Of a stretch of DNA of 57,366 nucleotides, positions 2,176 to 31,169 are shown piece after piece; position 1 is the stretch's first letter; every line of letters begins with the position of its first letter. The position numbers were made by a program, and so were the translations under genes. The stretch lies in the NCBI GenBank assembly GCA_024278975.1, contig JAJRSD010000043.1:1-57366 (forward strand), read 5' to 3'. The DNA comes from Bacteroidota bacterium (GTDB lineage: Bacteria; Bacteroidota; Bacteroidia; Bacteroidales; Prolixibacteraceae). A model generated the notes under the pieces. It ran no database searches, was not told where the DNA came from, and worked only from the letters and a program-made list of their open reading frames with translations.

Positions 2176-3162
2176 CTATTTATATTTAGCATCAGAGAAA
2201 TAACGCATAAATTGTGTACGTTCGTAAAGCACAGGCTTTTTAATATTTTTCTGACTGGAATTTCCACGAAACTCATCAATAGATTTATAATTGTGTCTAA
2301 ACATCCAATCTTTTAAGGTGTGTGTCATCGAGGTAATTATTTCAGTCCCCTCTTCGTAAATAGCAGAAACAATCTGAGTAGTTTGAGCTCCGACCAAAAG
2401 GTTTTTAATTACTTGTTCGCCGGTAAAAATACCACGCGAGGCTGTAAATTCAATATCAACTTTGTCGTATAAAATACCAATCCAGCGCAGTGTCATTGTA
2501 TTTAATGCCTGACAACTTAGAACATTACCCGAAACAACCTTTTCTGTTTCAATATCAACATCAGGGCTATAAAATTTATTAAACAGCACAACCGACGAAG
2601 CTTTGGTTTGCGAAATACGATGTATAAAATTTGCAAGCCCTGAGAAATAGTAGCTTATTTTTAACGAAAAAGGGATATTAATTGCCGTGCCAATTTTTTC
2701 AATAATATCAAAATAAACATTCTCTTTTTCAACTCCGGTAATATCTGTTTCGGCAGGCAATAAAAACAAGTTAACTTCCAGCGCATCAGCTCCGGCATCT
2801 TCTATCATTTTTGCATACTGAATCCACGATTCTGCTGTAGCACAGTTAATACTTGCAATTACCGGAATATCGAGTGCTTCTTTATTTTTTTTTATGAGAT
2901 TTGTATATTGAGTTAAATTGTGCTTTTTACTGTAATACATGGCATAATATTCCTGATCGTTAAACGAACCATAAATATTATTTAATCGCTGCTCGTCAAC
3001 ATCGTGTAGAATTTGCTCTTCAAAAAGCGACTTTAAGACAATGGCTCCGGCACCGGCTTTTTCGTAAGCAATCGAGTTTTCTACGTTTTCGGTTAAAGAG
3101 CAACTGCCTACAATTATCGGGCTCTTCAGTTTTAATCCCATGTAACTTGTCGAAATATCCAT
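2176..3162 (-). CDS. Dihydroorotate dehydrogenase-like flavoprotein
   Basis: A 328-residue TIM-barrel protein of the class 1 dihydroorotate dehydrogenase/PreA family (N-terminal TSYMGLKLKSPIIVGSCSLT is typical, and GADALEVN occupies the usual barrel strand). The loop that carries the catalytic Cys or Ser in true enzymes, normally SCPN right after the strand, here reads LFLLP, so ordinary dihydroorotate oxidation looks unlikely. It is the last gene of the operon, 5 bases after the ferredoxin-GltD fusion. In PreT-PreA the same two families (GltD-like and DHODH-like) work as partners, so it could be an electron-transfer or substrate-reducing partner of the fusion protein; that is inference. Unlike PreA it carries no C-terminal ferredoxin clusters. 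Confidence 0.8.
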   Translation of the reverse strand: MDISTSYMGLKLKSPIIVGSCSLTENVENSIAYEKAGAGAIVLKSLFEEQILHDVDEQRLNNIYGSFNDQEYYAMYYSKKHNLTQYTNLIKKNKEALDIPVIASINCATAESWIQYAKMIEDAGADALEVNLFLLPAETDITGVEKENVYFDIIEKIGTAINIPFSLKISYYFSGLANFIHRISQTKASSVVLFNKFYSPDVDIETEKVVSGNVLSCQALNTMTLRWIGILYDKVDIEFTASRGIFTGEQVIKNLLVGAQTTQIVSAIYEEGTEIITSMTHTLKDWMFRHNYKSIDEFRGNSSQKNIKKPVLYERTQFMRYFSDAKYK

Positions 3163-3167
3163 GATGT

Positions 3168-4961
3168 TTATTTTTTAGTTAAAAAGTTATCAATTCCAAC
3201 CGCAGCTTTATGACCATTTGCAATTCCATGAATTACGTCGGGTCCCTGAATTGTGTCGCCACCCATAAACAACCAACCAACACTGGTTTGGAAATAGTCG
3301 TTTACCTTAATTCGTCCGCGTGGTCCCATTTCAAGATGCTCTTTTGTTGGTTCTGAAATATAACTCAAATCCATTCCCTGACCGATTGATTCTACAACCA
3401 TATCGGCTTCAAAGAAATTCTCGTTTTTCATGTTACATTGCGGATTAAAGTTACCTGTTTCGTCGAACAATGACAAACACTGAACAACATGCAACCCTTT
3501 AATTTTACCATCCACAATTTCAATACGTTGTGGCGACCACCCCGGATTTACTACACATCCTTCCTCGCGCGCTTCAACAACTTCTTCGCGATCGGCAGGC
3601 ATTTTTTCCTCTGTTTCGAGGCTGGTTGCAGTAACCTGAACTTTACCATACTTTATTTTTTGCAATCTTGCCAACGAACGTGTAATATCCATTGCAACGT
3701 TACCTCCACCAATTACAACAATTTTCTCGGGAACATGAATCTCTTCTCCCTCGGTAATTTTCCGTAGTAATTCTATCGATTGATAAACATGTTTGTGCTC
3801 AGTTCCCTCAATTCGGGTACTTCTTCCGAGATGCAATCCGGTTCCTGCAAATACAGCATCAAAATCTTCATTCAGTTTTTCGAGTGTAATATCTTTCCCA
3901 ATAGTTGTATTGTAATGAATTTTTACGCCCAACGATAAAATATAATTTACATCTTTATCAATCTGATCGTATGGCAAGCGGTACTCCGGAATTCCAAAAC
4001 GCATCATTCCTCCGGCTTCGGCCAGCTTCTCAAATATCTCAATATCGTAACCTAATAACGACAAATAATATGCGGCAGATAATCCGGCCGGACCAGATCC
4101 AATAATAGCAACCTTTTTACCATTTTTCGTTAATTTATCGGTTTCAAGAATTTTCTTGTATTTCTCTGAAGGATTTTGATCGGCAATATATCGTTTTAGC
4201 CAGCGAATAGAGATCGGGTCTCCTTTATGCCCCATTGTACAAACGGTTTCGCATTTGTGTGTACAAATCCGTCCACATATTTCAGGCAGTGGATTTGTAT
4301 CGTATAAAATACGAAGACCCTCTTCCAGATCGTCGTTACGAATAGCTTTAATATATTCCGGAATTCCCATGTGTGCCGGGCAGGTAGCTGTACAAATACC
4401 ACATTCAACACAACGGTCGGCTTCGGCTTCAGCTTGTTCTTTCGAATATCCCTGAATCATTTCGATAAAAGAATCATCACGCTCTTCGGGATGCAACTCA
4501 CCCATTTCAACACGCTTTAATCCGTAGAATTCGTAATTTGGTTCCGGCTTTCTCCAACCGTCTTTTTTATCGTACCAATCTTTTTTGTCAACACCCGGAA
4601 CAAAGCGGAAATTATCAGGATCGGTATCAATCCATTTGTATTCATTAGTTAACCGCAACGAATTTGTGGTACAGATATCGACACACAACGCACACCAGCA
4701 ACACCTTCCATAATCAATCTTCGGACGCAACCCGCTATCTCCGTCTTTTGTTTCAATTCCATCAACAGGAACCAAATCGATCGCCTCATTTTCACAAATA
4801 GCCTCGCATGTACCACAACCGATACATTCATCAACATCGTTATCGTGAAAACCTCTGTACCGGGGAGCTGCCTCCCTGTTCAAAGGATCTTTAATGGTAA
4901 CAGGTTCTTTTACAACTTTCGACCACGCTGTAAAAGGCATCAATATATCTTTTAAACTCAT
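3168..4961 (-). CDS. Ferredoxin (NuoI/MbxN-like)-GltD/NfnL fusion oxidoreductase
   Basis: A 597-residue protein built from two parts. Residues about 40-100 are a two-cluster ferredoxin: C46/C49/C52/C56 and C87/C90/C93/C97, the place of the NuoI/MbxN subunit. Residues about 175-597 are a GltD/NfnL/PreT-type module: two more FeS motifs (C184/C187/C190/C194 and C229/C233/C237/C241), a FAD site (IIGSGPAG, 286-293) and an NAD(P) site (VVIGGGNVAMD, about 416-426). It would link NAD(P)H to the quinone- or sulfur-reducing arm of the complex through four [4Fe-4S] clusters. It occupies the exact gene position of mbxN in the MBX order. A 120-base gap with a hairpin separates it from the large-subunit gene upstream. 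I recall GltD-like genes near MBX-like clusters in Thermotogae, which should be checked. Confidence 0.88.
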   Translation of the reverse strand: MSLKDILMPFTAWSKVVKEPVTIKDPLNREAAPRYRGFHDNDVDECIGCGTCEAICENEAIDLVPVDGIETKDGDSGLRPKIDYGRCCWCALCVDICTTNSLRLTNEYKWIDTDPDNFRFVPGVDKKDWYDKKDGWRKPEPNYEFYGLKRVEMGELHPEERDDSFIEMIQGYSKEQAEAEADRCVECGICTATCPAHMGIPEYIKAIRNDDLEEGLRILYDTNPLPEICGRICTHKCETVCTMGHKGDPISIRWLKRYIADQNPSEKYKKILETDKLTKNGKKVAIIGSGPAGLSAAYYLSLLGYDIEIFEKLAEAGGMMRFGIPEYRLPYDQIDKDVNYILSLGVKIHYNTTIGKDITLEKLNEDFDAVFAGTGLHLGRSTRIEGTEHKHVYQSIELLRKITEGEEIHVPEKIVVIGGGNVAMDITRSLARLQKIKYGKVQVTATSLETEEKMPADREEVVEAREEGCVVNPGWSPQRIEIVDGKIKGLHVVQCLSLFDETGNFNPQCNMKNENFFEADMVVESIGQGMDLSYISEPTKEHLEMGPRGRIKVNDYFQTSVGWLFMGGDTIQGPDVIHGIANGHKAAVGIDNFLTKK

Positions 4962-5081
4962 TTTATATTATTTGTAGCCCCCTCCAACTCCCCAAAAGGG
5001 GGAGAGAAAAGAATTTTTATTTACATTTTTGTCCCATTTGTTATCTCGTTCTTTACACCCATAACAGACTGGATGAAACTT
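4962..5081. repeat. Intergenic gap with GC-rich hairpin inside the operon
   Basis: Between two genes of the same operon lies a 120-base gap holding CTCCCCAAAAGGGGGAG (4988-5004), a short stem-loop preceded by a C-rich run. Sequences of this kind are scattered in Bacteroidota intergenic regions. It may tune expression or RNA processing between the membrane/peripheral subunits and the NAD(P)H module. No run of T follows in either direction, so it is not a clear terminator. Confidence 0.5.
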
Positions 5082-6278
5082 CTATCTTTCAATTTCCGGC
5101 GGACACGTTTGCAACGAAACCATAATTCCATGTACATCGGCAACATCGGCACCAACAAGAAGATCTTCGAGCAGTGCAATTGCATGTGTATAACTTGGTC
5201 CGCGAAGATTAACACGCCGTGGTTTATCCGAGCCGTCGGTTACATAGTACATTCCATATTCGCCCCTGCCACTTTCCAGACGAACATAAGTTTCGCCTTT
5301 TGGAATTTTCCAGTGAAGTACATTTGGCATCGGAGTTTTAATATCACCTTTGTCGGGCATTTTTGCCATAATCTGGCGAATCAGATCAACAGTCTGAATT
5401 AGCTCCTGCCAGCGCACCCATGTTCTTGCATAAACATCGCCATCGGTATCGGTTGGCGGATCGAAGTCTAACTGTTCGTAATGCAAATACGGATCGTCTT
5501 TTCTTACATCGCGTTTAACTCCGCAACCACGGGCAGTTGTTCCTACAATACCATATTTGTCAACCATTTCGGGTGTAACAATGGCAAGTCCTTTTGCTCT
5601 TTTTTTGAAAACTGAATTGTGAAACATCAACCTTCTGATACGAATAATAAAATCGTCGATATCGCGCAGATTATCTTCCATTCTCTCTTTAAATCCATCG
5701 GGAAGTAAACCACGCACTCCTCCCGGGATAATATACATATGATAAACTCTGGCTCCGGTTAATTCCTCGAAACGGTCGAGAATTAAATCTCTTAAATAAA
5801 CACCCCACTGAACACCAAGTCCGAGAGCAAAAGTTCCACCTTGTCCGGGAACACCACGTAACAAACCCTGCAGGCGAGCCATCTCCAACGATAACATTCT
5901 CAGCCATTTTGCCATTTCAGGAACAGCTTTATCGTAACCCGATAGTTGTTCGGTACAAGTGGCAATTAAATATTCGTTTGTATCGGGCTCGGCAACACAC
6001 ATTCTGATACTTGTAGGAAAACCTTGAACAAACAGACGACGTTCGATAAGTTTCTCGAAACCACGATGAAGGTATCCAACATGCGTTTTTGCTTTAACCA
6101 CAGTATTTCCCTGCACCCAAAGTTCAACAGACATATTTCCGGTAACGCCCGGGTGGTTCGGTCCAAGCCAAATTTTTTGATACTTGTGCGAAGATAAATC
6201 TATGTCGTCGCCAATCTTCGCAGTAAGCGAAGGCAGCTTCTCTTTATCAGGTTCGAATCCTAAAAACTTATTTATCAT
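5082..6278 (-). CDS. Large (NuoD/MbxL-like) subunit of MBS-type complex
   Basis: A 398-residue protein of the 49-kDa NuoD/[NiFe]-hydrogenase large-subunit family (GPNHPGVTGNMSVELWV, VGYLHRGFEKLIE, PGGVRG). The two cysteine pairs that hold NiFe in hydrogenases are half kept: the N-terminal motif is RMCVAE (C94, with E97 in place of the second Cys) and the C-terminal motif is TCPPE (C392, with E395). NuoD of complex I has none of these, hydrogenases have all four; keeping two is what I recall for archaeal MbxL/MbsL. This supports a sulfane or polysulfide-reducing site, not H2 chemistry. It overlaps the NuoC-like gene by 11 bases and is cytoplasmic, bound to the membrane arm. Confidence 0.88.
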   Translation of the reverse strand: MINKFLGFEPDKEKLPSLTAKIGDDIDLSSHKYQKIWLGPNHPGVTGNMSVELWVQGNTVVKAKTHVGYLHRGFEKLIERRLFVQGFPTSIRMCVAEPDTNEYLIATCTEQLSGYDKAVPEMAKWLRMLSLEMARLQGLLRGVPGQGGTFALGLGVQWGVYLRDLILDRFEELTGARVYHMYIIPGGVRGLLPDGFKERMEDNLRDIDDFIIRIRRLMFHNSVFKKRAKGLAIVTPEMVDKYGIVGTTARGCGVKRDVRKDDPYLHYEQLDFDPPTDTDGDVYARTWVRWQELIQTVDLIRQIMAKMPDKGDIKTPMPNVLHWKIPKGETYVRLESGRGEYGMYYVTDGSDKPRRVNLRGPSYTHAIALLEDLLVGADVADVHGIMVSLQTCPPEIER

Positions 6279-6828
6279 TGTCTTGTTTTTTTGCAGTTAT
6301 CGGTTCGTTAGGATACAATTTCTTTCTCATATATGTTGCCGGGTCGTTTGTTTCTCTACCCGGACGCGGGAAGTATGTATTTTCTGAATACTCTTTGGTA
6401 TCAAAATCCCGGCGCATGTGTGGCATTTCTACCCATCCTTCAACAACAAAATCTTCATCAACACGCGGACTACCGGGAAAATCAATTCCGAAAGCTTCCT
6501 TTAATTCGCGCTGATAAGTCCATACTTGTTTCCATAAATGATGTGCAGAAGCCATCTCTGCATTTTCTCTGTCGATAAATGTTTTTACTCCAATGTCGGT
6601 TTTTGTTTCCGGATTATGAAGTAGATACAACAATTGGAATTTCCCCTCTTCAATCCAGTCAACACAACTCATCATTACAAAATGTGAATATCCCTCGTAA
6701 TCTCTTAAATCTGTAACCAAGCTGATAGCCACACCTTTTGGAACAGTAACGAAAGTTAAAGACGGACGTTGATAAACAGCGTCTGTTATATTAAAATCTT
6801 TCGATAATTTATTTATTAATTCTTTCAT
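6268..6828 (-). CDS. NuoC/MbxK-like 30-kDa subunit
   Basis: A 186-residue protein of the NADH dehydrogenase 30-kDa subunit family. The signature is seen in DLRDYEGYSHFVMMSCVDWI near residues 41-60, and in the C-terminal half in ELKEAFGIDFPGSPRVDEDF followed by LVEGW-like and MRRDFD segments that fit the NuoC pattern (REvfDmfGI-f-gHPdLrRil). It has no cofactor of its own; in the family it braces the large subunit and the NuoB-type subunit. Order B-C-D (J-K-L in MBX terms) is kept, with a 14-base gap to the NuoB-like gene and an 11-base overlap with the large-subunit gene. Confidence 0.85.
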   Translation of the reverse strand: MKELINKLSKDFNITDAVYQRPSLTFVTVPKGVAISLVTDLRDYEGYSHFVMMSCVDWIEEGKFQLLYLLHNPETKTDIGVKTFIDRENAEMASAHHLWKQVWTYQRELKEAFGIDFPGSPRVDEDFVVEGWVEMPHMRRDFDTKEYSENTYFPRPGRETNDPATYMRKKLYPNEPITAKKQDNDK

Positions 6829-6842
6829 TGTTTTGGGCTTTT

Positions 6843-7565
6843 CTACCAGTTGTAATCCGGCATATTCCAGTCTTTAATAATTTTCTTTTGATTTGCTTTA
6901 TACTCATCAAAATTTCTCGCGTACTCGTTTGCTTTCTCCCCTTTCCCCTCTTTAATTAGCTCTTTCAATTTCATGAAACCAGCTAATAATGCTTCGGGGC
7001 GCGGCATGCAACCGGCAATATAAACATCAACAGGAATATATTTATCCAAACGGTTTATTGTACTATAACTGTCGTAATACATTCCACCATTTATTGTACA
7101 CGACCCCAGTGCCAGAATGTATTTTGGCGAAGGCATTTGCTCGTATGTTCTGATAACACGTTTCAATGTTTTTACCGAAAGGTACCCCGAAATAATAAAT
7201 GCATTCGACTGGCGCGGTGTTGGACGCATCTGAACACCAAAACGAAACATATCGAAACGTGGTGTTACAAGTGGTGGAATTTCAATACTCCCACAACCTG
7301 TACCGAAACCCAATACCCAGATACTTTCGGCTCGTGCCCAATTCAGAAATTTCTCAATAACTCCGCTACATGGCTTTTCCTCAGTTGGCTTCTCGTTACT
7401 AAAATAGTCGTAAATAGGATTTATTTTAATAATAGAACCATCGGGAGCAACAACTTCTCTTTCTTCATCTTCGGGGTGAATAAAGGTCTTTTCAGCCTTC
7501 TTAACATTCGTTTCCGAACGCTGTAACATCTCATTCACCTTATCATTCATATCTTTTTCAGACAT
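6843..7565 (-). CDS. NuoB/MbxJ-like FeS subunit with altered cluster site
   Basis: A 240-residue protein of the NuoB/hydrogenase small-subunit family, which carries the FeS cluster nearest the active site. The match runs from SIWVLGFGTGCGSIEI through PRFDMFRFGV to SCTINGGMYYDSY and GCMPRPEALL. The expected four ligands are a tandem CC (or CxxC) plus two distal cysteines; here the first site reads C91-G92, and only C91, C156 and C186 are aligned with ligands. C66, outside the core, is the only other Cys. About 75 extra N-terminal residues are charged. It sits between the H-type membrane subunit and the NuoC-like subunit, in MBX order. The missing ligand could mean a 3Cys-ligated cluster. Confidence 0.88.
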   Translation of the reverse strand: MSEKDMNDKVNEMLQRSETNVKKAEKTFIHPEDEEREVVAPDGSIIKINPIYDYFSNEKPTEEKPCSGVIEKFLNWARAESIWVLGFGTGCGSIEIPPLVTPRFDMFRFGVQMRPTPRQSNAFIISGYLSVKTLKRVIRTYEQMPSPKYILALGSCTINGGMYYDSYSTINRLDKYIPVDVYIAGCMPRPEALLAGFMKLKELIKEGKGEKANEYARNFDEYKANQKKIIKDWNMPDYNW

Positions 7566-7577
7566 CTTTAAATCTTT

Positions 7578-8510
7578 TTATAAACTATAAATTATTATTG
7601 CTAAAAATCCTAACAGTAATGGCACTTTAAAAAACCATGTAACCGACTGCTCGATTTTGAAACGGGGAAATACCATTCCAACAAAAACCGACCAAAAATA
7701 TATTAAGAAAGTTTTTACAATTAGTTCAATCCAACTGTTTGCACCTCCAAAAACAAGGTTCATAAACAGAACGGCTTCCATAACATGAAGAATGCTTCCA
7801 GCAGATTGCATAAAACCCAGATAAGTACCTTCGAACTCGGTGGCCGGGCCAATTAAAATTTCGTTTGGTGCTTTTACCAGATTAAAAGGCGAATGTCCCA
7901 TTGCTCCCAACATTGCCAAAATAATTGTTGCGGCTGCAAACGGGTTGGTAAACAGAATCCAGTTTTCGAAACCTCCCTGTTGTGCTTCAACAATTTTATA
8001 TACAGAAAATGTATCGAATTGAATTGCAATTGAAAGGAAAGCCAAAGTTAATGGGAGCTCAACAGCAGCGTGTTGCGCCAATCCACGTGCAATTCCCATT
8101 GCAGAATACGGATGTCCGCCCTGTCCTGCGCCAAGTGCCATTCCCAACATTCCAAAAACCTGAAAATAGAGAATCAATATTAAATCTCCTTCAAACGAAA
8201 AATTTGTCCAAAGTCCGTTTGGCGAACCGGTAAATACCATTGGCATAAAAAGGAATAATCCAACGCCACCTGTCAATCTGAAAACAGGCCCGATATAATA
8301 CATAATACCGTGTGTAATTGTGGTTCTTATACTTATGTTTTTCAACAAGTTAAGCCACGGCTGATAAAATGGAATTCCATATCGTCCTGCCAAACGAGCA
8401 CCAATTTTACGAAAAGTGGCACCCATTAAAAACCCCCAGTTTAAAACAATAAATAAACCGAGAAGTGTATATCCTAATTTAGCGTAAATAGTCATTAATC
8501 TATCCTCCAA
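7578..8510 (-). CDS. NuoH/MbxM-like membrane subunit
   Basis: A 310-residue integral membrane protein with about eight hydrophobic segments, of the NuoH/HyfC/MbhM family that joins the membrane arm to the peripheral arm. Family features are the cytoplasmic loop RYGIPFYQPWLNLLKN (the family's GR-G-pl-Q-w-D-lK region), HPYSAMGIARGLAQHAAVEL and FNLVKAPNEILIGPATEFEG, which matches the conserved RtPFDlvEAE-EL--G---EY--- loop in divergent form. The start overlaps the end of the fused antiporter gene by 11 bases. Position between the antiporter modules and the NuoB-like gene matches mbxM. It would relay conformational or charge changes from sulfur reduction to ion transport. Confidence 0.88.
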   Translation of the reverse strand: MEDRLMTIYAKLGYTLLGLFIVLNWGFLMGATFRKIGARLAGRYGIPFYQPWLNLLKNISIRTTITHGIMYYIGPVFRLTGGVGLFLFMPMVFTGSPNGLWTNFSFEGDLILILYFQVFGMLGMALGAGQGGHPYSAMGIARGLAQHAAVELPLTLAFLSIAIQFDTFSVYKIVEAQQGGFENWILFTNPFAAATIILAMLGAMGHSPFNLVKAPNEILIGPATEFEGTYLGFMQSAGSILHVMEAVLFMNLVFGGANSWIELIVKTFLIYFWSVFVGMVFPRFKIEQSVTWFFKVPLLLGFLAIIIYSL

Positions 8511-11500
8511 TTATTACTAAGTAACTAACTATAATAAACAATACTATATGAGCAACATAAACCTGACCGTTACTGCTGTAAATACGGCGGGTAACATCGG
8601 CTATGTTATGTAATATTTCTGTAATCTTATTCCACCAGGCTTCAACCAGCGGAATTGTTGCAGGCCACATTGCCTTGTACAATCCTTCGAATACATTATA
8701 TGCAACATGGGTTGTTTCCGGTCGCTCGGGACGTTCACCCGAATAAGTAATATCGAACTGTTTTACTTTATGTGCTTTGCGTGTTGAAAGCATCAATAGT
8801 ACCAGTACAATTATAAACGAACCCATTATTGTGATAGCAACCAGCGAGCCTGCCCACTGTCCATATTGCGAGATTGCAGTTTCGCCAACCCATTGCAACT
8901 GCCCTTCGGGAAACCATTTTGCAATCATATTACCAAGCGGTTGTAACACCCACTGCGGTTTCATCGAGTAAACCATAATGCCTGCCAACAATGTATAAAT
9001 TGGTATCAGAAACCAAATTGAAATCTCTTTTACATTTCGATGATTATCTTTTAGCTGACCTAAAAATACAGTATGAATTAACCTCCATAAATACATAAAT
9101 GCAATTCCTCCTGAAAAGAACATTATTGCTCCCTGGAAGTACCATCCTTTTTCGAGAATAGCATTATAGAAAAGCCATTTTCCTGCAAATCCCGATAGCG
9201 GTGGAACACCTGAAAGTGCGATAATACCAATCATTACTGCGATAAAAGCCAGTGGCATTCGTTTAATCAAACCTCCCATCTGATACATGTTGTGAGTACC
9301 AACACGCATTACAACTGCACCAATTGTAAGGAAAAGAACTGCTTTATAAAGGAAGTGGTTAATCACATAAGAGAAACCTCCCAGCCATCCCAAGTGTGTC
9401 ATCATTGCCAATCCTAAAACAATATATCCTAACTGACCAATTGAAGAGTACGCCAATAATCTTTTTGCGTCTTCCTGAAAAACAGCCATCAGGTTTCCGG
9501 CCAAGGCAGTAATTGCACCAAGCCAACCCAAAGCGTAAGCCAATTCAGAATATTGGTTATTTGAAGCTCCCATTCCAATTAAAGTGAGAACAATTCCGAA
9601 TACACCGGCTTTCAGTAATATTGCTGAAACCATTGGCGACACATCGCTTTCGGCCTCGCCATGTGCTCCCGGCAACCAGATATGTAATCCGAGTGCAGCA
9701 GTTTTCGATAAGAAACCAACAATTAACAAACCGTAAGCAAGGTATGGGAGATACGAGATTCCGTTTAATATTTCCATGCTAAACGACGCGTGTCCAACGT
9801 GTGCCATTCCTAAACCTGTTAACAATGCGTAAGCACCACCAATTGAGAAAAGCATATAACTTAATCCGTGTGGCATCGAACGTTTTCCTCTGATAATAAG
9901 GAAATACGAACCTGCTGTCATTACCTCCCAACCAAAAAAGAATTGCAGTGTTGTTTGTGCCTCTATTATTGCTGTTAATCCTGCATACATTAAAAGAGCA
10001 ACAGGATAAAATCCGGGGCGTTTCCCTTTGTATGCATATCCGGCAATTAACGTTAAAATGCCACCCACCATAAAAATAGCTTCGAATATTAAACGCATAT
10101 TATCGAGGTCGGGGTAGATATTATAGAAGTATAATATCATTCCAACTATTGCAAGAGTATTTTTTATGATTACCGGTAAGAAATCGAGAATAAAGATTGC
10201 AGCTACAAAATATAGCGGAATAAAGTTTATTGCAGTGCCAACTTCGGTGTGTGGTGCTACAAAATAGCCAACAACATAAAGTGCAACTGCAAAAATTCCT
10301 ACCGGAATAATTTTATAAATATCGATTTTGAAATCTTTGATATCTTCGTTTTCGCCTTTAATTGCATAACCAAACCAACGAATCATATAAACGGCTTCCA
10401 TCATAGAACCAAATAAAATAGCAACTACCCACGAAATATTTCCGGTATTTACCAAATCCATTACCAGTGTCCATTTTGCGAAGAACGATGGAAATGGAGG
10501 AAATCCAATCAGAGCAAAAATAAATGTTCCCATCAAAAACAGGAAGTATGGCTTTTTACGAATTACAGCCCACCCTTTTATATTTTTTTGCTTAACAATT
10601 CCCGACAACCAGAACAGACCTGCTTTTGCAAGGTAGTGCGAAACTAAAATACCAAATGCAACATAAGTTGTGTTTTCGCCAAGAATATCTTTAAACCCGA
10701 GAATAATCATTAATAACCCAATCTGACCGATTGAAGAGTACCCGAGTAATCGTTTTGAATTCTCTTGTTTTAATGCCAGTAAATTACTTCCCACAAACGA
10801 TATTACACCAATTATTGAGATGTAGTAATTGAGTTGCGAACCTGCAATATCAACAATTTTATATAGTACAAAATATGTGGCTGTTGCCGATGCAGCAGAA
10901 AGAATCGCTCCAATTCCAGGATGCGAAGCTTCGTACACATCGAGTCCCCAGCCATTTGCAGGAAACGATTTCAGCTCTAATACAATGGCGATTATTATTA
11001 AGAATGCCGATACAAATGCTCCTTGTTTCAGAATTGGATTTGCTGTAATAATAGAGTCGATATTTAAAGAACCGGTAAACCGATAGATAAATATGATACC
11101 TATTAAAAGAATTCCGGAGATAATTCCTGTGGCGAGCATATATTTAAAACCTGCCGAAATGGCGTTCGTTCCTTTCTGAAGAATAATAAGTCCGGCGAGT
11201 GCAATACTTCCAACTTCAAGAAAAACAAAAATATTGAAAAGGTCGCGCGAGAGAACTATCACGTTCAAACTCATAAAAAGAATAAGGAAAACAACCTGAC
11301 TTCCGGTACCATTCTTTTTAAGCGACGACATCATGTAGATTGCCCCCAGCACACCCACAATATTTATTAACGCAGTAATAACTGACTCGTTTAAACCCAT
11401 CAGCAAATTAATTGAAAACGGTGGTTTAAAACCGGCAGTGTAAACTTGCATTGCCTCTACCAAACCGCTGCCGAGCCCAAAAACCCACTGCAACGAAACA

Positions 11501-11631
11501 AAGGTATTAAATAATAGTGCTGCTAATAATATGAGATAAGACGAGCGTTGTGCCTTGTTTCCCAGCAATCCCATAAAGAATGCTATTCCGAGCGAAACAG
11601 CTACAATATATATCGGAGAAATTAAATTCAT
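8500..11631 (-). CDS. Fused twin MrpD/NuoL-type antiporter subunit (MbxH-H' fusion)
   Basis: A 1043-residue membrane protein holding two complete proton-antiporter domains in one chain. Domain 1 (about 1-480) shows the TM5 glutamate in FNIFVFLEVGSIALAGLI, the TM7 lysine in ELKSFPANGWGLDVYEA and KRLLGYSSIGQIG. Domain 2 (about 530-870) shows FFFGWEVMTAGSYFLI, SKTAALGLHIWLPGAHGEAE and KRLLAYSSIGQLGYIVLG. The last 170 residues resemble the extended, helical C-terminal part seen on MbxH'/NuoL-type subunits, with a final hydrophobic helix. MrpD proteins are usually about 490-500 residues. In archaeal MBX the two antiporter subunits H and H' are separate neighbours, so this is a gene fusion at the same place in the order. 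No internal stop or restart is seen. Confidence 0.92.
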   Translation of the reverse strand: MNLISPIYIVAVSLGIAFFMGLLGNKAQRSSYLILLAALLFNTFVSLQWVFGLGSGLVEAMQVYTAGFKPPFSINLLMGLNESVITALINIVGVLGAIYMMSSLKKNGTGSQVVFLILFMSLNVIVLSRDLFNIFVFLEVGSIALAGLIILQKGTNAISAGFKYMLATGIISGILLIGIIFIYRFTGSLNIDSIITANPILKQGAFVSAFLIIIAIVLELKSFPANGWGLDVYEASHPGIGAILSAASATATYFVLYKIVDIAGSQLNYYISIIGVISFVGSNLLALKQENSKRLLGYSSIGQIGLLMIILGFKDILGENTTYVAFGILVSHYLAKAGLFWLSGIVKQKNIKGWAVIRKKPYFLFLMGTFIFALIGFPPFPSFFAKWTLVMDLVNTGNISWVVAILFGSMMEAVYMIRWFGYAIKGENEDIKDFKIDIYKIIPVGIFAVALYVVGYFVAPHTEVGTAINFIPLYFVAAIFILDFLPVIIKNTLAIVGMILYFYNIYPDLDNMRLIFEAIFMVGGILTLIAGYAYKGKRPGFYPVALLMYAGLTAIIEAQTTLQFFFGWEVMTAGSYFLIIRGKRSMPHGLSYMLFSIGGAYALLTGLGMAHVGHASFSMEILNGISYLPYLAYGLLIVGFLSKTAALGLHIWLPGAHGEAESDVSPMVSAILLKAGVFGIVLTLIGMGASNNQYSELAYALGWLGAITALAGNLMAVFQEDAKRLLAYSSIGQLGYIVLGLAMMTHLGWLGGFSYVINHFLYKAVLFLTIGAVVMRVGTHNMYQMGGLIKRMPLAFIAVMIGIIALSGVPPLSGFAGKWLFYNAILEKGWYFQGAIMFFSGGIAFMYLWRLIHTVFLGQLKDNHRNVKEISIWFLIPIYTLLAGIMVYSMKPQWVLQPLGNMIAKWFPEGQLQWVGETAISQYGQWAGSLVAITIMGSFIIVLVLLMLSTRKAHKVKQFDITYSGERPERPETTHVAYNVFEGLYKAMWPATIPLVEAWWNKITEILHNIADVTRRIYSSNGQVYVAHIVLFIIVSYLVIIGG

Positions 11632-11650
11632 TGTTTAAGTACTTAAATAA

Positions 11651-12007
11651 TTACCATTTCATATCTTTAAAATCACTAATGTCGAGCGATTTTTTTGCCT
11701 GATACATTTTAAGGGCGTAAGCCAGCATTAAAGCAGTAACACCCAAACCAATTACAATGGCTGTTAAAACCAAAGCCTGCGGAACCGGGTCAACAATTTT
11801 ACTTGCAACATCGGTTGTTCCAACAACACTATCGAGTATTGGTGCTGTACCTCCTTTAATGTATCCCACGGTTACAATTAAAACGTGCAACCCAGTATCG
11901 AACAGCGAAAAACCAACAATTATTTTAATAATATTTCTTTTCGAAAGTATTCCGTATAAACCAATCAGGATTAGCGAAAAACCTGTTATTAATGCGATAA
12001 TTTCCAT
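11651..12007 (-). CDS. mrpC: MrpC/MbxG-type antiporter subunit
   Basis: A 118-residue, three-helix membrane protein of the NuoK/MrpC family. The C-terminal half DPVPQALVLTAIVIGLGVTA is the hallmark DP-PQALvLTAIVIg motif, and the N-terminal helix LILIGLYGILSKRNIIKIIVG fits the family start. It is the small ion-path subunit that packs against the D-type antiporter. It lies 19 bases before the fused antiporter gene and 18 bases after the MrpB-type gene. The charged tail (KSLDISDFKDMKW) is short. Length is normal for the family. Confidence 0.92.
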   Translation of the reverse strand: MEIIALITGFSLILIGLYGILSKRNIIKIIVGFSLFDTGLHVLIVTVGYIKGGTAPILDSVVGTTDVASKIVDPVPQALVLTAIVIGLGVTALMLAYALKMYQAKKSLDISDFKDMKW

Positions 12008-12025
12008 TGATTACATTTTAAAAAT

Positions 12026-12727
12026 TTACATTTCCTCTTTTTGAATACCCTGAAAATTTGAGAGGATATTTGAAAGTTCGGAACCAACTTTTAGTCCCAC
12101 AAATGAGTAGATTAACGGAATTGCACCGGCACTAAATATTTTACCAAAAGTTCCGAGAGGCAACACTTTATTGTCGAGAAATCCTCCGGCCAGTAAAATA
12201 CCAAACACGCCAACCAGCACAAATGATATTCCCGAAACCGATTCGACAATAGATATAATACGATGATTAATTTTGAAATCGGGGTTTGCCATCAACAACA
12301 AAACAAATGCTGTTGCAATAATTGCACCCCCCTGAAAACCACCACCCGGAGTTAAATGCCCGTTAATAAAAACATAAACACCGAGCACCATAACTATTGG
12401 AACCAATAATTTTGAAGCAGTAAGAATTATCTCACTTGTTTCGCGTTTTAGTTCAATATCTTTTTGCAGTTTTTCTCTTTTCAGAAAAAAGCTGACAATG
12501 GATGCTACCAAAAACAGAATTGTTACTTCGCCGAGTGTATCGAATCCCCTGTAAGTAACTACAATTGATGTTACAAGGTTTGGTGCGCCAACTTCGGCAG
12601 CACCTTTATCGGCATAATGTGTTGCCAGCGGAGTGAGTGTTGTACTATCTCCGAAATTCCAGAACAGGGTAACAAAAATTGCTGCCAGTCCGGCTACTAT
12701 TGCGATTATAAAAAAGTTTCTAATCAT
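12026..12727 (-). CDS. MrpB-type subunit (MbxF-like, MnhB domain)
   Basis: A 233-residue membrane protein. The C-terminal 150 residues are an MnhB domain: LVPIVMVLGVYVFINGHLTP is followed by GGGFQGGAIIATAFVL, the conserved H-TPGGGFQGG motif. The N-terminal 80 residues add helices with ADKGAAEVGAPNLVTSIVVT, a region typical of the second half of the MrpA tail or of MbhE. So the gene looks like the joined E+F form I recall for MBX, in contrast to the separate E and F genes of the archaeal MBH hydrogenase. It overlaps the upstream DUF4040 gene by 4 bases, which suggests coupled translation. Confidence 0.9.
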   Translation of the reverse strand: MIRNFFIIAIVAGLAAIFVTLFWNFGDSTTLTPLATHYADKGAAEVGAPNLVTSIVVTYRGFDTLGEVTILFLVASIVSFFLKREKLQKDIELKRETSEIILTASKLLVPIVMVLGVYVFINGHLTPGGGFQGGAIIATAFVLLLMANPDFKINHRIISIVESVSGISFVLVGVFGILLAGGFLDNKVLPLGTFGKIFSAGAIPLIYSFVGLKVGSELSNILSNFQGIQKEEM

Positions 12728-12963
12728 TTTGCTTTCCTTATTTTATTCAACACATAAAAAAAGATGATGGTAGATAGACCGCTGCCAATTGCTGCTTCTG
12801 TCATTGCCACATCGGGCGCTGCCATTAGCAAATACATTACCGATGCCATTAAACTAACTACTCCGGTTGCAATAACCGCAACTGCCAGTTTTTTATGAAT
12901 AATTGCTGTTACGGCCATAACAACCATTATCAGGCTTAATACTATAATTATTATCAGGTTCAT
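12724..12963 (-). CDS. DUF4040/MbhD-type small membrane subunit
   Basis: A 79-residue protein with two to three membrane helices. The motif MAAPDVAMTEAAIGSGLST matches the DUF4040 family (aPDvalTEa-vG-gl), found as the MbhD/MbxD subunit and in the C-terminal part of MrpA. The acidic residue in APDVAMTEA lies in the ion-path region of the family. It begins one base after the MrpG stop and overlaps the MrpB-type start by 4 bases. Short, but clearly a real gene because of the strong motif and tight operon packing. Confidence 0.9.
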   Translation of the reverse strand: MNLIIIIVLSLIMVVMAVTAIIHKKLAVAVIATGVVSLMASVMYLLMAAPDVAMTEAAIGSGLSTIIFFYVLNKIRKAK

Positions 12964-12964
12964 A

Positions 12965-13324
12965 TTATTCTGATATTTTAGTTTTGTTATTTAGTTTTTC
13001 GTTTTCAAAATCTTCCAACTCATCAACAACTGTAACATCGGCTTTTTTAACACCAATATAATGTGCTGCGCGCGCCAACATATGCGACGAAACAGGGTTG
13101 GTAATTAAAATGAATACGATAAGTAGAAATATTTTGCCCGCAATATCGAAATAGATAATTCCGATTCCGAGCAACGACAAAAGAGTACCTAAAGTTGACG
13201 CTTTTGTTCCGGTCTGGATGCGTGTAAAAACGTCGGGCATTCTAATTAATCCGATGCTGCCAAGCAAAAGAAAAACGGACCCGAGTAGTGTAATTAATGC
13301 ACCTATTATTTTAATGATTTCCAT
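12965..13324 (-). CDS. mrpG: MrpG/MbxC-type antiporter subunit
   Basis: A 119-residue protein with three helices, of the MnhG/PhaG family. The diagnostic stretch GSIGLIRMPDVFTRIQTGTK (family: G-lGllRlpD-ytRlHa-tKa-TlG) is followed by STLGTLLSLLGI and NPVSSHMLARAAHYIG. Histidine in RlHA is replaced by Gln here (RIQTGTK). The C-terminal 25 residues are charged and cytoplasmic. It lies between the MrpF and DUF4040 genes with gaps of one or two bases. Confidence 0.92.
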   Translation of the reverse strand: MEIIKIIGALITLLGSVFLLLGSIGLIRMPDVFTRIQTGTKASTLGTLLSLLGIGIIYFDIAGKIFLLIVFILITNPVSSHMLARAAHYIGVKKADVTVVDELEDFENEKLNNKTKISE

Positions 13325-13326
13325 AT

Positions 13327-13587
13327 TTATAAACTTTTTTCGAGGTAACGGGCAATTATTATTACACCCAGAAAACTGAGTAATCCATAAATTATGGCAA
13401 CATCAATATAAATTGTTCTGCCAGCAAAATGGGAAATTAGTGCAATCAACGATATTGAAGCAACGGTCATTACATCGAATGCAACAACCCTGTCGACCAG
13501 CGAGCCGGCTTTAAAAAACCGAAATGTTGACAAAACAATACTGAGCAGCATTATTCCGCCTGCTATTTGTAAGATTATATTAGCCAT
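13327..13587 (-). CDS. mrpF: MrpF/MbxB-type antiporter subunit
   Basis: An 86-residue, three-helix protein of the MnhF/PhaF family. It contains FKAGSLVDRVVAFDVMTVAS, which fits the family core (r-GPs-~DRvvA-D-~~~), and a second helix YIDVAIIYGLLSFLGVIIIARYLE. MrpF in Mrp antiporters and its MBH counterpart form part of the Na+ path next to MrpE and MrpG. It overlaps the MrpE stop by 8 bases. Normal length. Confidence 0.92.
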   Translation of the reverse strand: MANIILQIAGGIMLLSIVLSTFRFFKAGSLVDRVVAFDVMTVASISLIALISHFAGRTIYIDVAIIYGLLSFLGVIIIARYLEKSL

Positions 13588-14074
13588 AAATTACCTCCAG
13601 ATATTTTTCAAATTTACTTACTATCGCATTTGTATGCTCTTCCATATTTTCTCCTTTTACATCAATCCAATGGATAAAAATTGTGTCGTCTTTTAACTCA
13701 ACGGTTAATGTTCCTGGAGTTAAAGTAATGGAGTTGGTAAGAATCATCCGCCCAAGTTTCGATTTTAACTTTGTTTTCACCTCTACAAATCCGGGATTAA
13801 TCGGAAGTTTAGGCGAAACCACACGGCGTGCCACATCGAAATTAGATTTTACCAGCTCGCCAATAAAAACAAAAATGTACAAAAACCAGTACCCGATTGC
13901 TTTTGGATTGAGTTTCAAATCATCGAAAATGCCACATGTGTAGCAAAATATCAGACCAACTAAAACAGAGACAACCGCCCCCGAAATAAGCACTTCAGTA
14001 GAGAGTTTCATGTTGAGTAAAACCCAGATTACAAAAAGTGTTATTATTGAAATTATTAATGATTTTATCTTCAT
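13580..14074 (-). CDS. mrpE: MrpE/MbxA-type antiporter subunit, first gene of the operon
   Basis: MnhE/PhaE family. Starting at the ATG at 14074 (MKIKSLIISIITLF) gives 164 residues; the frame continues to a TTG at 14098, which I consider less likely. Family motifs are LLNMKLSTEVLISG near the N-terminus, the helix with FLYIFVFIGELVKSNFDVAR, the segment ILTNSITLTPGTLTVELKDD (family: l-aNlITLTPGTlsvd) and IHWIDVKGENMEE. It starts the operon that runs to 2176. The 5' leader upstream carries a terminator-like hairpin (14216-14242). Confidence 0.9.
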   Translation of the reverse strand: MKIKSLIISIITLFVIWVLLNMKLSTEVLISGAVVSVLVGLIFCYTCGIFDDLKLNPKAIGYWFLYIFVFIGELVKSNFDVARRVVSPKLPINPGFVEVKTKLKSKLGRMILTNSITLTPGTLTVELKDDTIFIHWIDVKGENMEEHTNAIVSKFEKYLEVIYG

Positions 14075-14203
14075 CTCATTATAATTATAAATTTTCAATG
14101 GTATCTTCCATAAATTATTTAGAGATAACCAGCATACAATTACATAAAGTACTAATTATCTCTTTAAAACTTGACTCGCAAAATGTAAGTTCTTATAAAT
14201 CAG

Positions 14204-14451: not shown

Positions 14452-15150
14452 ATGGAGTCAGGAGAAACAACAAATTCATGTCTTTTTTGTATAAATAAAT
14501 CGTCGTGTTTTAAAGAACTTGATGAAGAAGAACTTGCACATAGCAATAAACACCGCGTTCAACTCGATTTTAAACTGGGAGAAACTATTTTCAAACAAGG
14601 CTCGTTTGCAAACCATATTTATTTTGTAAAAGCGGGGCTTGTAAAAGTTTATATGGAAATACCTCATTCCGATAAAAACCTTGTAATTAACATTTTACCC
14701 ACCGGTAATTTAATCGGGCTTCCCTCATTGTACGGAAACAAAGTTCATACATACACTGCAACGGCCATTGAAAACACTACTGTTTGTATTATCGAAAACG
14801 GTACAATAAAAGAGTTAATTGAGAATAACGGAAAATTTGCTGCCGAGATTATTAAAACAATGAATCATTGCTCTAATTCAACTTTTACACGATTTGCAAG
14901 TTTAACGCACAAACAACTGAATGGCAGACTTGCAGATGCACTTATTTATCTCTCGGAAAAGATTTACAAAAACTCCACTTTTAAACTTTCGCTTTCGCGT
15001 GCCGATTTGGGCGAACTTACCGGAATGTCGACAATGAGCGTTGTTAAGGTGATTAAAGATTTTAAAGACAACAAAATTATTAATAATAAAGGTGGTACTA
15101 TCGAAATTATTAATATGCCACTTTTAAAACGTATCAGCGAAATCGGGTAA
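14452..15150 (+). CDS. FNR-type oxygen-sensing transcription regulator
   Basis: A 232-residue Crp/Fnr protein: cyclic-nucleotide-binding fold at about 30-140, dimer helix, then a winged HTH (SRADLGELTGMSTMSVVKVI). Cysteines C10, C13, C19 and C112 have the same spacing as the four [4Fe-4S] ligands of E. coli FNR (C20, C23, C29, C122), each shifted by exactly ten. That argues for a true oxygen- or NO-labile cluster. The recognition helix reads STMSVVKVIKDF where FNR has TVETISRLLGRF, so the Glu and Ser that read TTGAT are not kept and Arg is Lys; its DNA site probably differs. It is divergent from the MBS-like operon, the obvious candidate target. Confidence 0.88.
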   Translation: MESGETTNSCLFCINKSSCFKELDEEELAHSNKHRVQLDFKLGETIFKQGSFANHIYFVKAGLVKVYMEIPHSDKNLVINILPTGNLIGLPSLYGNKVHTYTATAIENTTVCIIENGTIKELIENNGKFAAEIIKTMNHCSNSTFTRFASLTHKQLNGRLADALIYLSEKIYKNSTFKLSLSRADLGELTGMSTMSVVKVIKDFKDNKIINNKGGTIEIINMPLLKRISEIG

Positions 15151-22314: not shown

Positions 22315-22935
22315 TTATTTCTTCTGCCCATCCTCATCATCAACTTCAACAATTTCCCAACCGGTAATCATTGCTTTTAAATTTGATAATGGAGTGCTTC
22401 CGGTAGTAACCAGATACACGTGTGCAATTACAAACGAGAGTAAAATATATGCACCAAAAGAATGGATTGTTGCAATAACATCGAGTCCAATTACATGTAC
22501 CGGGTTATTGGGGTAAACGTAAAACAGGTAAATTAACCCTGTAAATACCTGGACAGGAATGACCAGCAGTTTCAACCCGAGATATATAATTCGTTGCAAC
22601 GGGCTGAATTTATTGTAAATAGTTTTGTGAGTAGGATGCGGTGCGCCTTTAAAAATTCCGGTAATGTAATACGATATTTCGGCTTTTATTAGCTTTGTAG
22701 TTGGAATATATTGTCGCCATTCACCAGTAACGAAATGCCAGAAGATAGCAAATACAATGAGTACCAGTAGTGCCCATGCAGCCATATTATGAACCCTAAT
22801 AACATTTTCGAACCCAATGATACTGTACGAACCATGAATTTCGAACCCGGTGAAAGCGAGAAAGAGAATCAGTAGTGCCTGATTCCAGTGCCAAAACCTT
22901 TCAAATCCTCTATATATGTATGTTTTCTTTTTCAT
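22315..22935 (-). CDS. Cytochrome b561-type membrane subunit (PhsC/thiosulfate reductase-like)
   Basis: A 206-residue membrane protein of the prokaryotic b561/[NiFe]-hydrogenase cytochrome b family, with four to five helices. Likely heme ligands are His in FERFWHWNQALL (near 16), RVHNMAAW (near 49), ATIHSFGAY and FVIAHVYLV near the C-terminus. It begins 13 bases after the octaheme cytochrome gene and would pass electrons between the quinone pool and that cytochrome. The charged tail ends in EVDDEDGQKK on the cytoplasmic side. The pair is set apart from the rhodanese-Psr operon by a strong terminator. Confidence 0.85.
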   Translation of the reverse strand: MKKKTYIYRGFERFWHWNQALLILFLAFTGFEIHGSYSIIGFENVIRVHNMAAWALLVLIVFAIFWHFVTGEWRQYIPTTKLIKAEISYYITGIFKGAPHPTHKTIYNKFSPLQRIIYLGLKLLVIPVQVFTGLIYLFYVYPNNPVHVIGLDVIATIHSFGAYILLSFVIAHVYLVTTGSTPLSNLKAMITGWEIVEVDDEDGQKK

Positions 22936-22948
22936 AGCAAGGTGGTTT

Positions 22949-24604: not shown

Positions 24605-24612
24605 TATATTAT

Positions 24613-24650
24613 AAAAATGCCTGGTAATCTTAAATTATCAGGCATTTTTT
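24613..24650. terminator. Strong bidirectional-type terminator
   Basis: AAATGCCTG pairs with CAGGCATTT, with an inner TAAT/ATTA extension, flanked by A-run and T-run on both sides. On the minus strand it ends the Psr-rhodanese operon just before the octaheme cytochrome gene. Confidence 0.85.
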
Positions 24651-24682
24651 GAACAGCTAAAGGGCTGCATAAGAAAACTTTA

Positions 24683-25303
24683 TTAACAACCTCCCTGTAC
24701 TTTTTTCTTCTTTTTGCGTTTCGAAATAGGAGGTTTCGAGCTTTTTTTCATTGTTGATGGCTGAGTATTAACAGCAGCTCCGCCTAATGCAGCTCCGGCT
24801 CCTTTTCTGAAGTTATATTTTGCTATCTCTTCGTCAGGACTGGTTGATGCTGGTTTCTCAGGATTCATAATGGTTTCAACCCAATAGTTCAGCCCACCCA
24901 GCATAACGTAATTATTCTCGAAACCCAACTGACGGGTAATCATCCACGCCTCATTGGCATTCTTTGTTCCGTTCGAATAAAATACATTTAACTTCACATC
25001 CTGGTTGATGTACTCTTTCCACTCGGGATTAAGAATATCGACCAAAGGAATGTTGATGGAATTTGGCAAGCTGAATTTCTCATACTGATCGGCATCTCTT
25101 ACATCAATCAATTGTAAAGTAGGATCTTTTTGAATAAGCATATCTGCGACTTCATCGGGTTGCAAAAACTGCGTTCCGTCTTTTACCTCTTCCAATAGTT
25201 CGTTGGCTGTAAGTCTGAATTGCTTAGTAGTGTTTTCTGGCACAGCTGCAATTATCATCCCCAAAGGAATAATGATGGCTGCCAATATTAATCTTGCTTT
25301 CAT
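24683..25303 (-). CDS. Exported rhodanese-like protein without catalytic Cys
   Basis: A 206-residue protein with a signal peptide (KARLILAAIIIPLGMIIAA) and one rhodanese fold (LQLIDVRDADQYEKFSLPNS at 64-82). The active-site loop, normally YCxxGxRS, reads FYSNGTKNA, so the sulfur-carrying Cys is Ser110 and the protein cannot be an ordinary sulfurtransferase. The C-terminal 50 residues are low-complexity, Lys-rich, and end in VQGGC; that last residue is the only Cys of the protein. The terminal Cys might carry sulfane sulfur on a flexible arm, which is speculation. It follows the YeeE/YedE genes of the Psr operon. Confidence 0.85.
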   Translation of the reverse strand: MKARLILAAIIIPLGMIIAAVPENTTKQFRLTANELLEEVKDGTQFLQPDEVADMLIQKDPTLQLIDVRDADQYEKFSLPNSINIPLVDILNPEWKEYINQDVKLNVFYSNGTKNANEAWMITRQLGFENNYVMLGGLNYWVETIMNPEKPASTSPDEEIAKYNFRKGAGAALGGAAVNTQPSTMKKSSKPPISKRKKKKKVQGGC

Positions 25304-25344
25304 AATTTATGACTTTTTGATAATTATATTTAAGTATCAAGAAT

Positions 25345-25950: not shown

Positions 25951-25972
25951 TTTAAACTAATTTAATTGATGA

Positions 25973-26485: not shown

Positions 26486-26658
26486 AATATAAAAAATAGT
26501 TGGAAGTTGGAAGACAGAAGTTGGAAGTAAATACTCCAACAAAGTCTAAACATTTTCCTTGTTATTATTAAATTGTAATACTATCAAATTATTTTTCAAA
26601 CTTTTCAAACTTGTAATTTGCAATCTTCAACTCAAAGCTCGAAACTCTGAACTCTGAA
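26486..26658. repeat. Intergenic gap of short tandem-like repeats
   Basis: The 173 bases hold TTGGAAGTTGGAAG followed by AGAAGTTGGAAG, and at the other end GAAACTCTGAACTCTGAACT. These degenerate direct repeats resemble spacer repeats seen elsewhere in Bacteroidota genomes. No gene or clear terminator is seen. Confidence 0.5.
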
Positions 26659-27600: not shown

Positions 27601-27610
27601 TTTTATAAGT

Positions 27611-30381: not shown

Positions 30382-30401
30382 ATTTGTATCTTTTATGAAT
30401 G

Positions 30402-30409: not shown

Positions 30410-30428
30410 ATAATTCTTTATATCGACA

Positions 30429-30626: not shown

Positions 30627-30647
30627 CTCCCTTTTTTTTATATTTTT

Positions 30648-31151: not shown

Positions 31152-31169
31152 AACTGTAGGTTTTAAAAA

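Follow-up and report, generated by a model that had tools for sequence, protein, structure and literature searches.

A bacterial MBX-type complex with a fused H-H′ subunit and a predicted NAD(H) module in a Bacteroidota genome

We sought to determine what kind of complex is encoded by a run of thirteen genes in a Bacteroidota genome of the family Prolixibacteraceae (assembly GCA_024278975.1), and between which partners it would carry electrons. The genes lie on contig JAJRSD010000043.1, which was analysed over its entire length of 57,366 bases (hereafter the window). As read from their predicted products, they are a 12-subunit bacterial MBX, belonging to the MBX/MBS family, together with an accessory DHODH-like flavoprotein. 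This family is described as an early relative of complex I which combines an Mrp-type membrane arm with a hydrogenase-derived peripheral arm (PMC7684303). By its predicted architecture the window complex is not archaeal MBS proper, but a bacterial variant with a fused H-H′ subunit and a built-in NAD(H) module. The reading that we favour, with a probability of about 0.58, is that it would act as a reversible ion pump between NAD(H) and sulfane sulfur, with a net flow from NADH to sulfane sulfur in this organism.

All thirteen open reading frames (ORFs) are called on the minus strand between 2176 and 14098, in order from the MrpE-like to the DHODH-like gene. Adjacent genes overlap by 4-11 bases or are spaced by 1-19 bases, except for one gap of 120 bases between the NuoD-like gene (5082) and the ferredoxin-GltD gene (4961). 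An earlier note on this DNA had listed thirteen tightly packed minus-strand genes in the same order with a single 120-base gap, and both the ORFs and their domains confirm it. Pfam and NCBIfam domains fit the gene order, running from MNHE, MrpF, MnhG, MbhD (DUF4040), MbhE plus MnhB and Oxidored_q2 through two Proton_antipo_M domains in one ORF, NADHdh, Oxidored_q6, Complex1_30kDa and Complex1_49kDa to Fer4-type, Fer4_20 and Pyr_redox_2 domains and, finally, DHO_dh. The operon comprises twelve MBX-type genes (A, B, C, D, fused E, G, fused H-H′, M, J, K, L and N) and the DHODH-like gene:

13580..14098, minus strand: MbxA (MrpE-like), 172 aa; PF01899, 137 bits
13327..13587, minus strand: MbxB (MrpF-like), 86 aa; PF04066, 62.8 bits
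12965..13324, minus strand: MbxC (MrpG-like), 119 aa; PF03334, 88 bits
12724..12963, minus strand: MbxD (MbhD/DUF4040), 79 aa; PF13244, 72.7 bits
12026..12727, minus strand: MbsE-type fused MbhE and MrpB, 233 aa; PF04039 and PF20501, best PDB chain 6U8Y_E
11651..12007, minus strand: MbxG (MrpC-like), 118 aa; PF00420, 84 bits
8500..11631, minus strand: fused H-H′ antiporter-like subunit with two proton-channel-type domains, 1043 aa; PF00361 in two stretches
7578..8510, minus strand: MbxM (NuoH-like) membrane anchor, 310 aa; best PDB chain 6U8Y_M
6843..7565, minus strand: MbxJ (NuoB-like), predicted proximal [4Fe-4S] ligands C91, C156 and C186; 6U8Y_J match, motif count
6268..6828, minus strand: MbxK (NuoC-like), 186 aa; PF00329, 74 bits
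5082..6278, minus strand: MbxL (NuoD-like), 398 aa; 6U8Y_L match, residues, trees
3168..4961, minus strand: MbxN, two-cluster ferredoxin domain and GltD/NfnB-like FAD-NAD module, 597 aa; NF010590, triad S447-L448-E449
2176..3162, minus strand: DHODH-like flavoprotein (NF005741 family), accessory gene; Pfam/NCBIfam, comparison with PreA

This order is not a matter of chance, since the identical order was found again in distant genomes; the earlier note gives the same order for the archaeal mbxABCDFGHH′MJKLN operon. Comparison with PDB sequences, which covered L, J, M, E and both halves of H-H′, consistently returned the Pyrococcus furiosus MBS structure 6U8Y. MbxL matched 6U8Y_L best (284 bits, with complex I at no more than 178.5 and MBH at 118), as did MbxJ with 6U8Y_J (215 bits, next 145), MbxM with 6U8Y_M (129 bits, best complex I-type chain 60) and the fused E with 6U8Y_E (162 bits, MBH chain F next at 57), while the N- and C-terminal halves of H-H′ were closest to 6U8Y_H (130 bits) and 6U8Y_X (195 bits), respectively. 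For wider comparison, a scan of named genomes yielded at least 571 stretches with a NuoD relative (E<=1e-3, complex I possibly included), the best 80 of which were kept; 79 of these entered the tree and the residue counts, L085 being too short (L numbers denote loci of relatives and G numbers genomes, G000 being the window's own). Reading frames of relatives run from stop to stop or from the first start, without curated starts, and at GC-rich loci some genes are masked by antisense frames in the ORF listing.

In a 50-row tree, the window L, MBS and all 43 bacterial MBX rows stand apart from complex I with support of 100/99, and a 101-row quick tree of the NuoD-like subunit recovers the grouping with MBS again (support 99); both trees contain a single archaeal MBS row and gave long-branch warnings. 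The phylogeny of the NuoD-like subunit, which had been proposed as a check, thus places it with MBS and away from complex I and group 4 hydrogenases, and the NuoB-like protein, judged from its best PDB matches and its motif, does not fall among these either; the outcome that the earlier note named as refuting did not arise. Taken with the active-site residues described below, these results bear out the earlier claim of a complete MBX/MBS-type complex. An Mrp-type membrane arm is followed in order by the M, J, K, L and N genes, as in this family, and readings as a plain Mrp antiporter or as a hydrogenase were dropped on account of domains, PDB matches, residues and L trees.

The active site gives a more specific picture. 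In MBS, three cysteines of MbsJ (C28, C93 and C123) ligate the proximal cluster, which is the catalyst, whereas C25 of MbsJ and C85 and C385 of MbsL are dispensable; the residues with which Thermus Nqo4 binds quinone, His38 and Tyr87, are missing from MBS, as are two of the four NiFe cysteines (PMC7684303). The window MbxJ keeps C91, C156 and C186 and has G88 at the position of C25, which, from the alignment of its MBS-like motif, suggests that the three ligands are retained and the idle fourth cysteine is lost. The motif is GTGC in 88 of 96 aligned J rows (a set from which loci L001-L014 and L024 and proteins shorter than 140 aa were left out) and ATGC in one (L052), as compared with CTGC in MBS; the remaining rows are three of complex I, two group 4-like, one unreadable (L062) and MBS itself. 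It is unlike the tandem CC of complex I or the CxxC of hydrogenases. In L, the position of the quinone His is occupied by Thr in 90/90 MBX rows and in MBS, whereas it is His in 6/6 complex I rows, and the position of the quinone Tyr is Val in the same 90/90 rows and in MBS, as opposed to Tyr in 6/6 (the 90 rows include the identical pairs L020/L046, L101/L117 and L091/L112). The window L has this Thr and Val, lacks the full set of NiFe cysteines, and keeps C94 and C392, equivalent to MbsL C85 and C385; these are Cys in 70/90 and 42/90 MBX rows, a partial retention that fits the dispensability of both.

Such residues bear directly on whether the operon might encode an ordinary complex I variant with menaquinone as the acceptor. 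The NCBIfam NuoD model does score the window L at 347.9, near 360 bits, and the only Complex1_49kDa matches in the window's own genome are its two MBX-type proteins. The quinone His and Tyr and the tandem CC are gone, however, an Mrp arm is present, the operon has no NuoEFG-type module, and L sits elsewhere in the tree; this reading is already contradicted, and we regard it as highly improbable. A group 4 [NiFe] hydrogenase would have all four NiFe cysteines in the large subunit, and the window L does not. The likeness to P. furiosus MBS/MBX (6U8Y) extends to the fused MbsE, the L/J chamber residues, the three proximal-cluster cysteines and the two antiporter-like domains. Departures from archaeal MBS in the strict sense, in which H and H′ are two proteins and N is a ferredoxin on its own, are equally clear: H and H′ form one protein in the window, J is without the idle C25, and N carries an extra GltD-like NAD module (chain N of 6U8Y has 208 aa), because of which the window complex need not depend on free ferredoxin. 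Fused H ORFs longer than 950 aa were found in 63 other cases among the loci examined.

The electron input is best seen in MbxN. Its NuoI-like ferredoxin domain has two cluster motifs (C46/49/52/56 and C87/90/93/97), and its GltD/NfnB-like module has two more (C184/187/190/194 and C229/233/237/241); of these cysteines, the first eight are conserved in 83/84 rows, the exception being an NfnB control without that domain, and the last eight in 84/84. Of 83 stretches, 77 gave a ferredoxin-GltD match (E<=1e-15); the 83 include two flanks without the cluster. This protein family is already known (NF010590, PRK13984): the window MbxN scores 899.8-902.1 bits over its full length, below the cut-off of 946, and among 14 control genomes searched at E<=1e-150 only that of Thermotoga maritima exceeds the cut-off. 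T. maritima MBX is described as having 13 subunits, with mbxA up-regulated on sulfur (PMC9431562); its likeness to the window complex is a match within the T. maritima genome as a whole. The available text of PMC6085437 makes no mention of NfnB in MBX.

Related modules offer a clue to the cofactor. In NfnB, the phosphate of NADPH is held by a Tyr-Arg-Arg triad, and measurements on three DsrL enzymes showed activity with NADP(H) and none with NAD(H) for the single enzyme that has YRR, and a preference or requirement for NAD(H) in the other two, which lack it (PMC7596348; the YRR rule is repeated in PMC8528874). NfnB, DsrL and PreT share with MbxN the Fer4_20, FAD and NAD(P) module and the alternative between YRR and other triads; the window module differs in being fused behind a NuoI-type ferredoxin domain within a membrane-complex operon. 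Among 84 aligned MbxN rows, which count some genomes twice (L017/L038, L020/L046), the triad is YRR in 36 (35 MBX and NfnB) and S/A/C-L/M-E in 48, including SLE (S447-L448-E449) in the window; Escherichia coli PreT, annotated as NAD-dependent, has A-R-E. Since SLE replaces the NADP(H)-type YRR, the window MbxN should use NAD(H), not NADP(H). The earlier suggestion of a link to NAD(P)H is narrowed by the triad to NAD(H). In an 81-row MbxN tree, the triad switch appears as a single change (support 100), although the triad columns were numbered from another alignment and the triad was perhaps not exactly removed. At loci L036 and L040 the L belongs to the window clade and the N is of the YRR type. 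The N of L065 is xLE-type, yet its L is closest in the tree to the L of L073 and L079, both of which have YRR in N; these mismatches suggest that the N subunit was probably exchanged more than once among MBX complexes.

The mechanism that we propose would run as follows. Electrons of NAD(H) would enter at the FAD in the GltD-like half of MbxN, pass through the two [4Fe-4S] clusters of that half and the two of the ferredoxin half, and arrive at the proximal cluster of MbxJ, which with three Cys ligands would leave one iron open. At the open iron, inside a hydrophobic chamber formed by L, J and M, electrons would be exchanged with sulfane sulfur, either as polysulfide or as an organic polysulfide, and the reaction would be coupled via M and the fused H-H′ to proton movement and via the Mrp part to Na+/H+ exchange, most likely in the direction from NADH to sulfane sulfur in the window organism. 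We infer sulfane sulfur as the substrate from the active site, and likewise the cluster coordination, the ion and the direction. The N-terminal half of H-H′ keeps E139 and E219 (MbsH E138 and E219), and the C-terminal half keeps E569, K643 and K674 (MbsH′ E128, K217 and K248); the MBS channel residues are those of PMC7684303, and the alignment register was counted by hand.

Since MbxN combines a ferredoxin domain with an NAD(P) module, and P. furiosus Mbx was described as a ferredoxin:NADP+ oxidoreductase (PMC6349859), the complex might instead be an ion-pumping ferredoxin:NAD(P)+ oxidoreductase, with the proximal cluster a relay or relic and sulfur not a substrate. We consider this distinctly unlikely: the chamber residues and the three cysteines are conserved in almost every row, which would be needless if the site were bypassed, and two NQR2/RnfD-type proteins, to judge from their lengths probably an Rnf and an Nqr, are already encoded in the own genome.

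Is there a link to sulfur metabolism in the surroundings of the operon, as a sulfane sulfur acceptor would lead one to look for? The window contains a sulfur island (22315-34247, of which 22315-33583 was compared among relatives as the PSR/DsrC/SQR-like island) with genes for cytochrome b561, a multihaem cytochrome c, a rhodanese, two YeeE-type transporters, PsrC/PsrB/PsrA-type proteins, DsrE2, a single-cysteine DsrC-like protein, DUF1641, an SQR-like flavoprotein and a Crp-type regulator. In G020 a stretch of 2.6 kb, which contains the Crp gene and two or more further ORFs, separates the operon end from the island (L038, on the same contig of this genome, ends before reaching it); in G023 only two cytochrome genes of the island adjoin the Crp gene, and PsrA lies about 20 kb further on the same contig. 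In G009 the island was not found in 39 kb of further flanks, PsrA and DsrC being elsewhere in the genome. Outside the genus, the island is on the other side of the operon at L029, the only locus to show it among the best 80 of at least 571 (flanks of up to 10 kb, many shorter). Synteny of the island with the operon is suggestive; co-occurrence is not. The island is genus-wide and not enriched with the MBX cluster, for which reason it lends weak support, and the earlier remark that it fits a sulfur-reducing role has lost force.

A different association emerged from a sample of 274 genomes in the class to which Thiothrix caldifontis (G356) belongs, searched for L at E<=1e-110 and DsrA at E<=1e-60. 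An MBX-type L was found in 13 of these and dsrA in 92, and all 13 carriers also have dsrA (hypergeometric 3.8e-7, uncorrected for descent). Nine of the 13 clusters were retrieved, and matches to L, J, K, M, H and ferredoxin-GltD are present in all nine, with triads of the xLE type in six (one AME), YRR in two (L169, L170) and one unread (L164). Twelve of the 13 L loci were read: four have the TGN motif of the window, and eight have GIEGN with a C-terminal DACPPEVDR, the two sets being 43-48% identical to each other. The third MBX subgroup seen in these dsrA-carrying genomes (L155-L162, L163-L167, L171) combines GIEGN in L with CTGC in J like MBS, separate H1 and H2, and an xLE-type MbxN where readable. 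Across 40 MBX-carrying genomes, dsrA is present in 11, all from proteobacteria-titled loci (11/14), which points to a tie with one kind of sulfur oxidizer and not with Dsr generally.

This association raises the possibility that in some hosts the complex runs mainly in reverse, an ion gradient driving the oxidation of sulfide or thiols to sulfane sulfur and the reduction of NAD+. Such a short path of reverse electron flow would be expected chiefly in sulfur oxidizers of the Dsr type. The redox potentials of NADH (about -320 mV) and polysulfide (about -260 mV) are close, so that the reaction should reverse readily, and on this rests the bolder, NADH-making reading for sulfur oxidizers; the NAD(H)-type triad suits so small a span. 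By its description, the putative Mrp-Mbx of the Riftia symbiont is likewise a bacterial MBX in a sulfur oxidizer with reverse Dsr, and it shares co-expression neighbours with the reductive tricarboxylic acid cycle; it does not group, however, with the Calvin-Benson-Bassham cycle, which has most of the genes for sulfur oxidation as its co-expression neighbours, and its direction is given there as unknown (PMC11636981). Moreover, the window organism has no dsrA, and an NADP(H)-type triad is found in L169 and L170, half of the four carriers with fused H in the class sample. On balance, we regard reverse running as unlikely. The literature search, in which subscription journals were thinly covered and no query was aimed at an MBX-dsrA link, brought up nothing on it.

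Several observations weigh against an ion pump between NADH and sulfane sulfur as proposed here, or against the support drawn from sulfur metabolism. The N-terminal half of H-H′ shows an alignment gap at the mid-channel lysine K250 of MBS, and the C-terminal half has Y755 at the position of MbsH′ H336; pumping may thus differ from that in MBS, and the ion pumps of H-H′ may be altered relative to it. The J subunit of L170, which lies outside the 96-row set, reads GTGCC, with a second Cys beside the ligand. PsrA is found in 42 of 61 relatives, in 8/10 with the complex and 34/51 without, and DsrC in 5/10 and 18/51, respectively. Kinship may inflate the 13/13 overlap with dsrA, at least 8 of the 13 carriers belong to the third subgroup, in which Glu replaces Thr, and dsrA is absent from 26/26 MBX genomes that are not proteobacteria-titled, the own genome included. 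As a separate observation on H-H′, lysine 258, at the end of the stretch of residues ~243-258 beside the K250 gap, is kept in 61/64 rows.

The NAD(H)-to-sulfane-sulfur reading can be set within a wider view, in which a large and little-noticed bacterial MBX family is split from NADP(H) to NAD(H) and its NAD(H) form is a reversible NADH-sulfane pump, run in both directions according to the host. NADH would then be drained onto sulfur in bacteria such as the window Bacteroidota and, with the pump driven backwards by an ion gradient, made from sulfide-level electrons in Dsr-type oxidizers, and one genome could hold both forms, one per nicotinamide pool. As a whole we regard this view as tentative and improbable. 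A second complete MBX-type cluster is present in the own genome (contig C23, L015 2230-14430): its L is 50% identical to that of the window, H1 and H2 are separate, the DHODH-like gene comes first, and the MbxN triad is YRR, of the NADP(H) type. The nearest relatives, G019 and G022, likewise carry two L genes. Behind the second cluster lie genes with AlaDh/PNT and PNTB domains (L015 14664-17595), which we take for pntA and pntB; their position carries little weight as evidence, because the G022 copy, by the first residues of its listed ORFs, has no pnt-type gene behind it. A pair of NAD(H)- and NADP(H)-type complexes in one genome offers a clean test of why both are kept.

An MBX-type L (E<=1e-70) was found in 10 of 61 relatives, own genome included, and in 2 of 296 genomes of the phylum, one being the own genome. 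The closest named relative among the matches listed is a Draconibacterium (Prolixibacteraceae) metagenome-assembled genome, 96% identical over the NuoD-like subunit, and the L of L026, titled Chlorobiota, is 90% identical to that of the window. The best 80 of at least 571 named relatives bear eleven phylum labels (Bacteroidota, Chlorobiota, Cloacimonadota, Fidelibacterota, Spirochaetota, Pseudomonadota, Myxococcota, Fermentibacterota, Acidobacteriota, Calditrichota and Aminicenantes); these are mostly metagenome-assembled genomes, so that single placements may be binning or naming errors. The earlier note had spoken of a lineage in which such a complex is not usually described, and the complex is rare in Bacteroidota, but it is not confined to them. 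Within the literature covered as above, nothing was found on MBX or sulfane reductase in Bacteroidota, on an NAD(H)/NADP(H) split of MBX, or on such a pair in one genome. Knowledge of the structure and mechanism of MBX/MBS comes from a single archaeon. If bacteria under many phylum labels have a form that includes an NADH module, sulfur-linked ion pumping would become testable in a named strain such as Thiothrix caldifontis DSM 21228 (L077). It could also correct the annotation of such clusters as complex I or Mrp-linked hydrogenase. Mrp-linked complexes of Cloacimonadota, whose genes may or may not be the same, are called group 4g hydrogenases (PMC8542988).

A regulator gene is divergent from the operon:

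14452..15150, plus strand: Crp/Fnr-type regulator; PF00027 and PF13545

It is a possible local regulator of the operon, and a Crp/Fnr-type gene is divergent to the MBX operon at other Bacteroidota loci as well. In the sequence preceding the operon, simple patterns gave no palindrome of the Crp/Fnr type for the window, L016, L017 and L018, and two weak ones for L019. Over the whole window, Rfam at gathering score returned tRNA-His only.

The genes behind MbxN vary. Of 64 named loci, 10 have a DHODH-like gene within the next 400 bp, and each of the ten carries the title Bacteroidota or that of a member group; the window protein is without the SCP segment found in PreA, which makes action on dihydroorotate or dihydropyrimidines unlikely. 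A rubrerythrin-like gene comes right behind MbxN in 22 of 64 loci with enough sequence, a count that rests on three rubrerythrin queries (for example, L047 12982-13491, L100 12931-13377 and L083 12979-13473); that its product guards an exposed iron-sulfur site against oxygen is speculation. Finally, a CBS-domain gene directly follows MbxN at L026 (13276-13752), with similar genes in L028, L037, L065 and others, and these flank genes form a cluster of seven loci, with Pfam run on L026 only.

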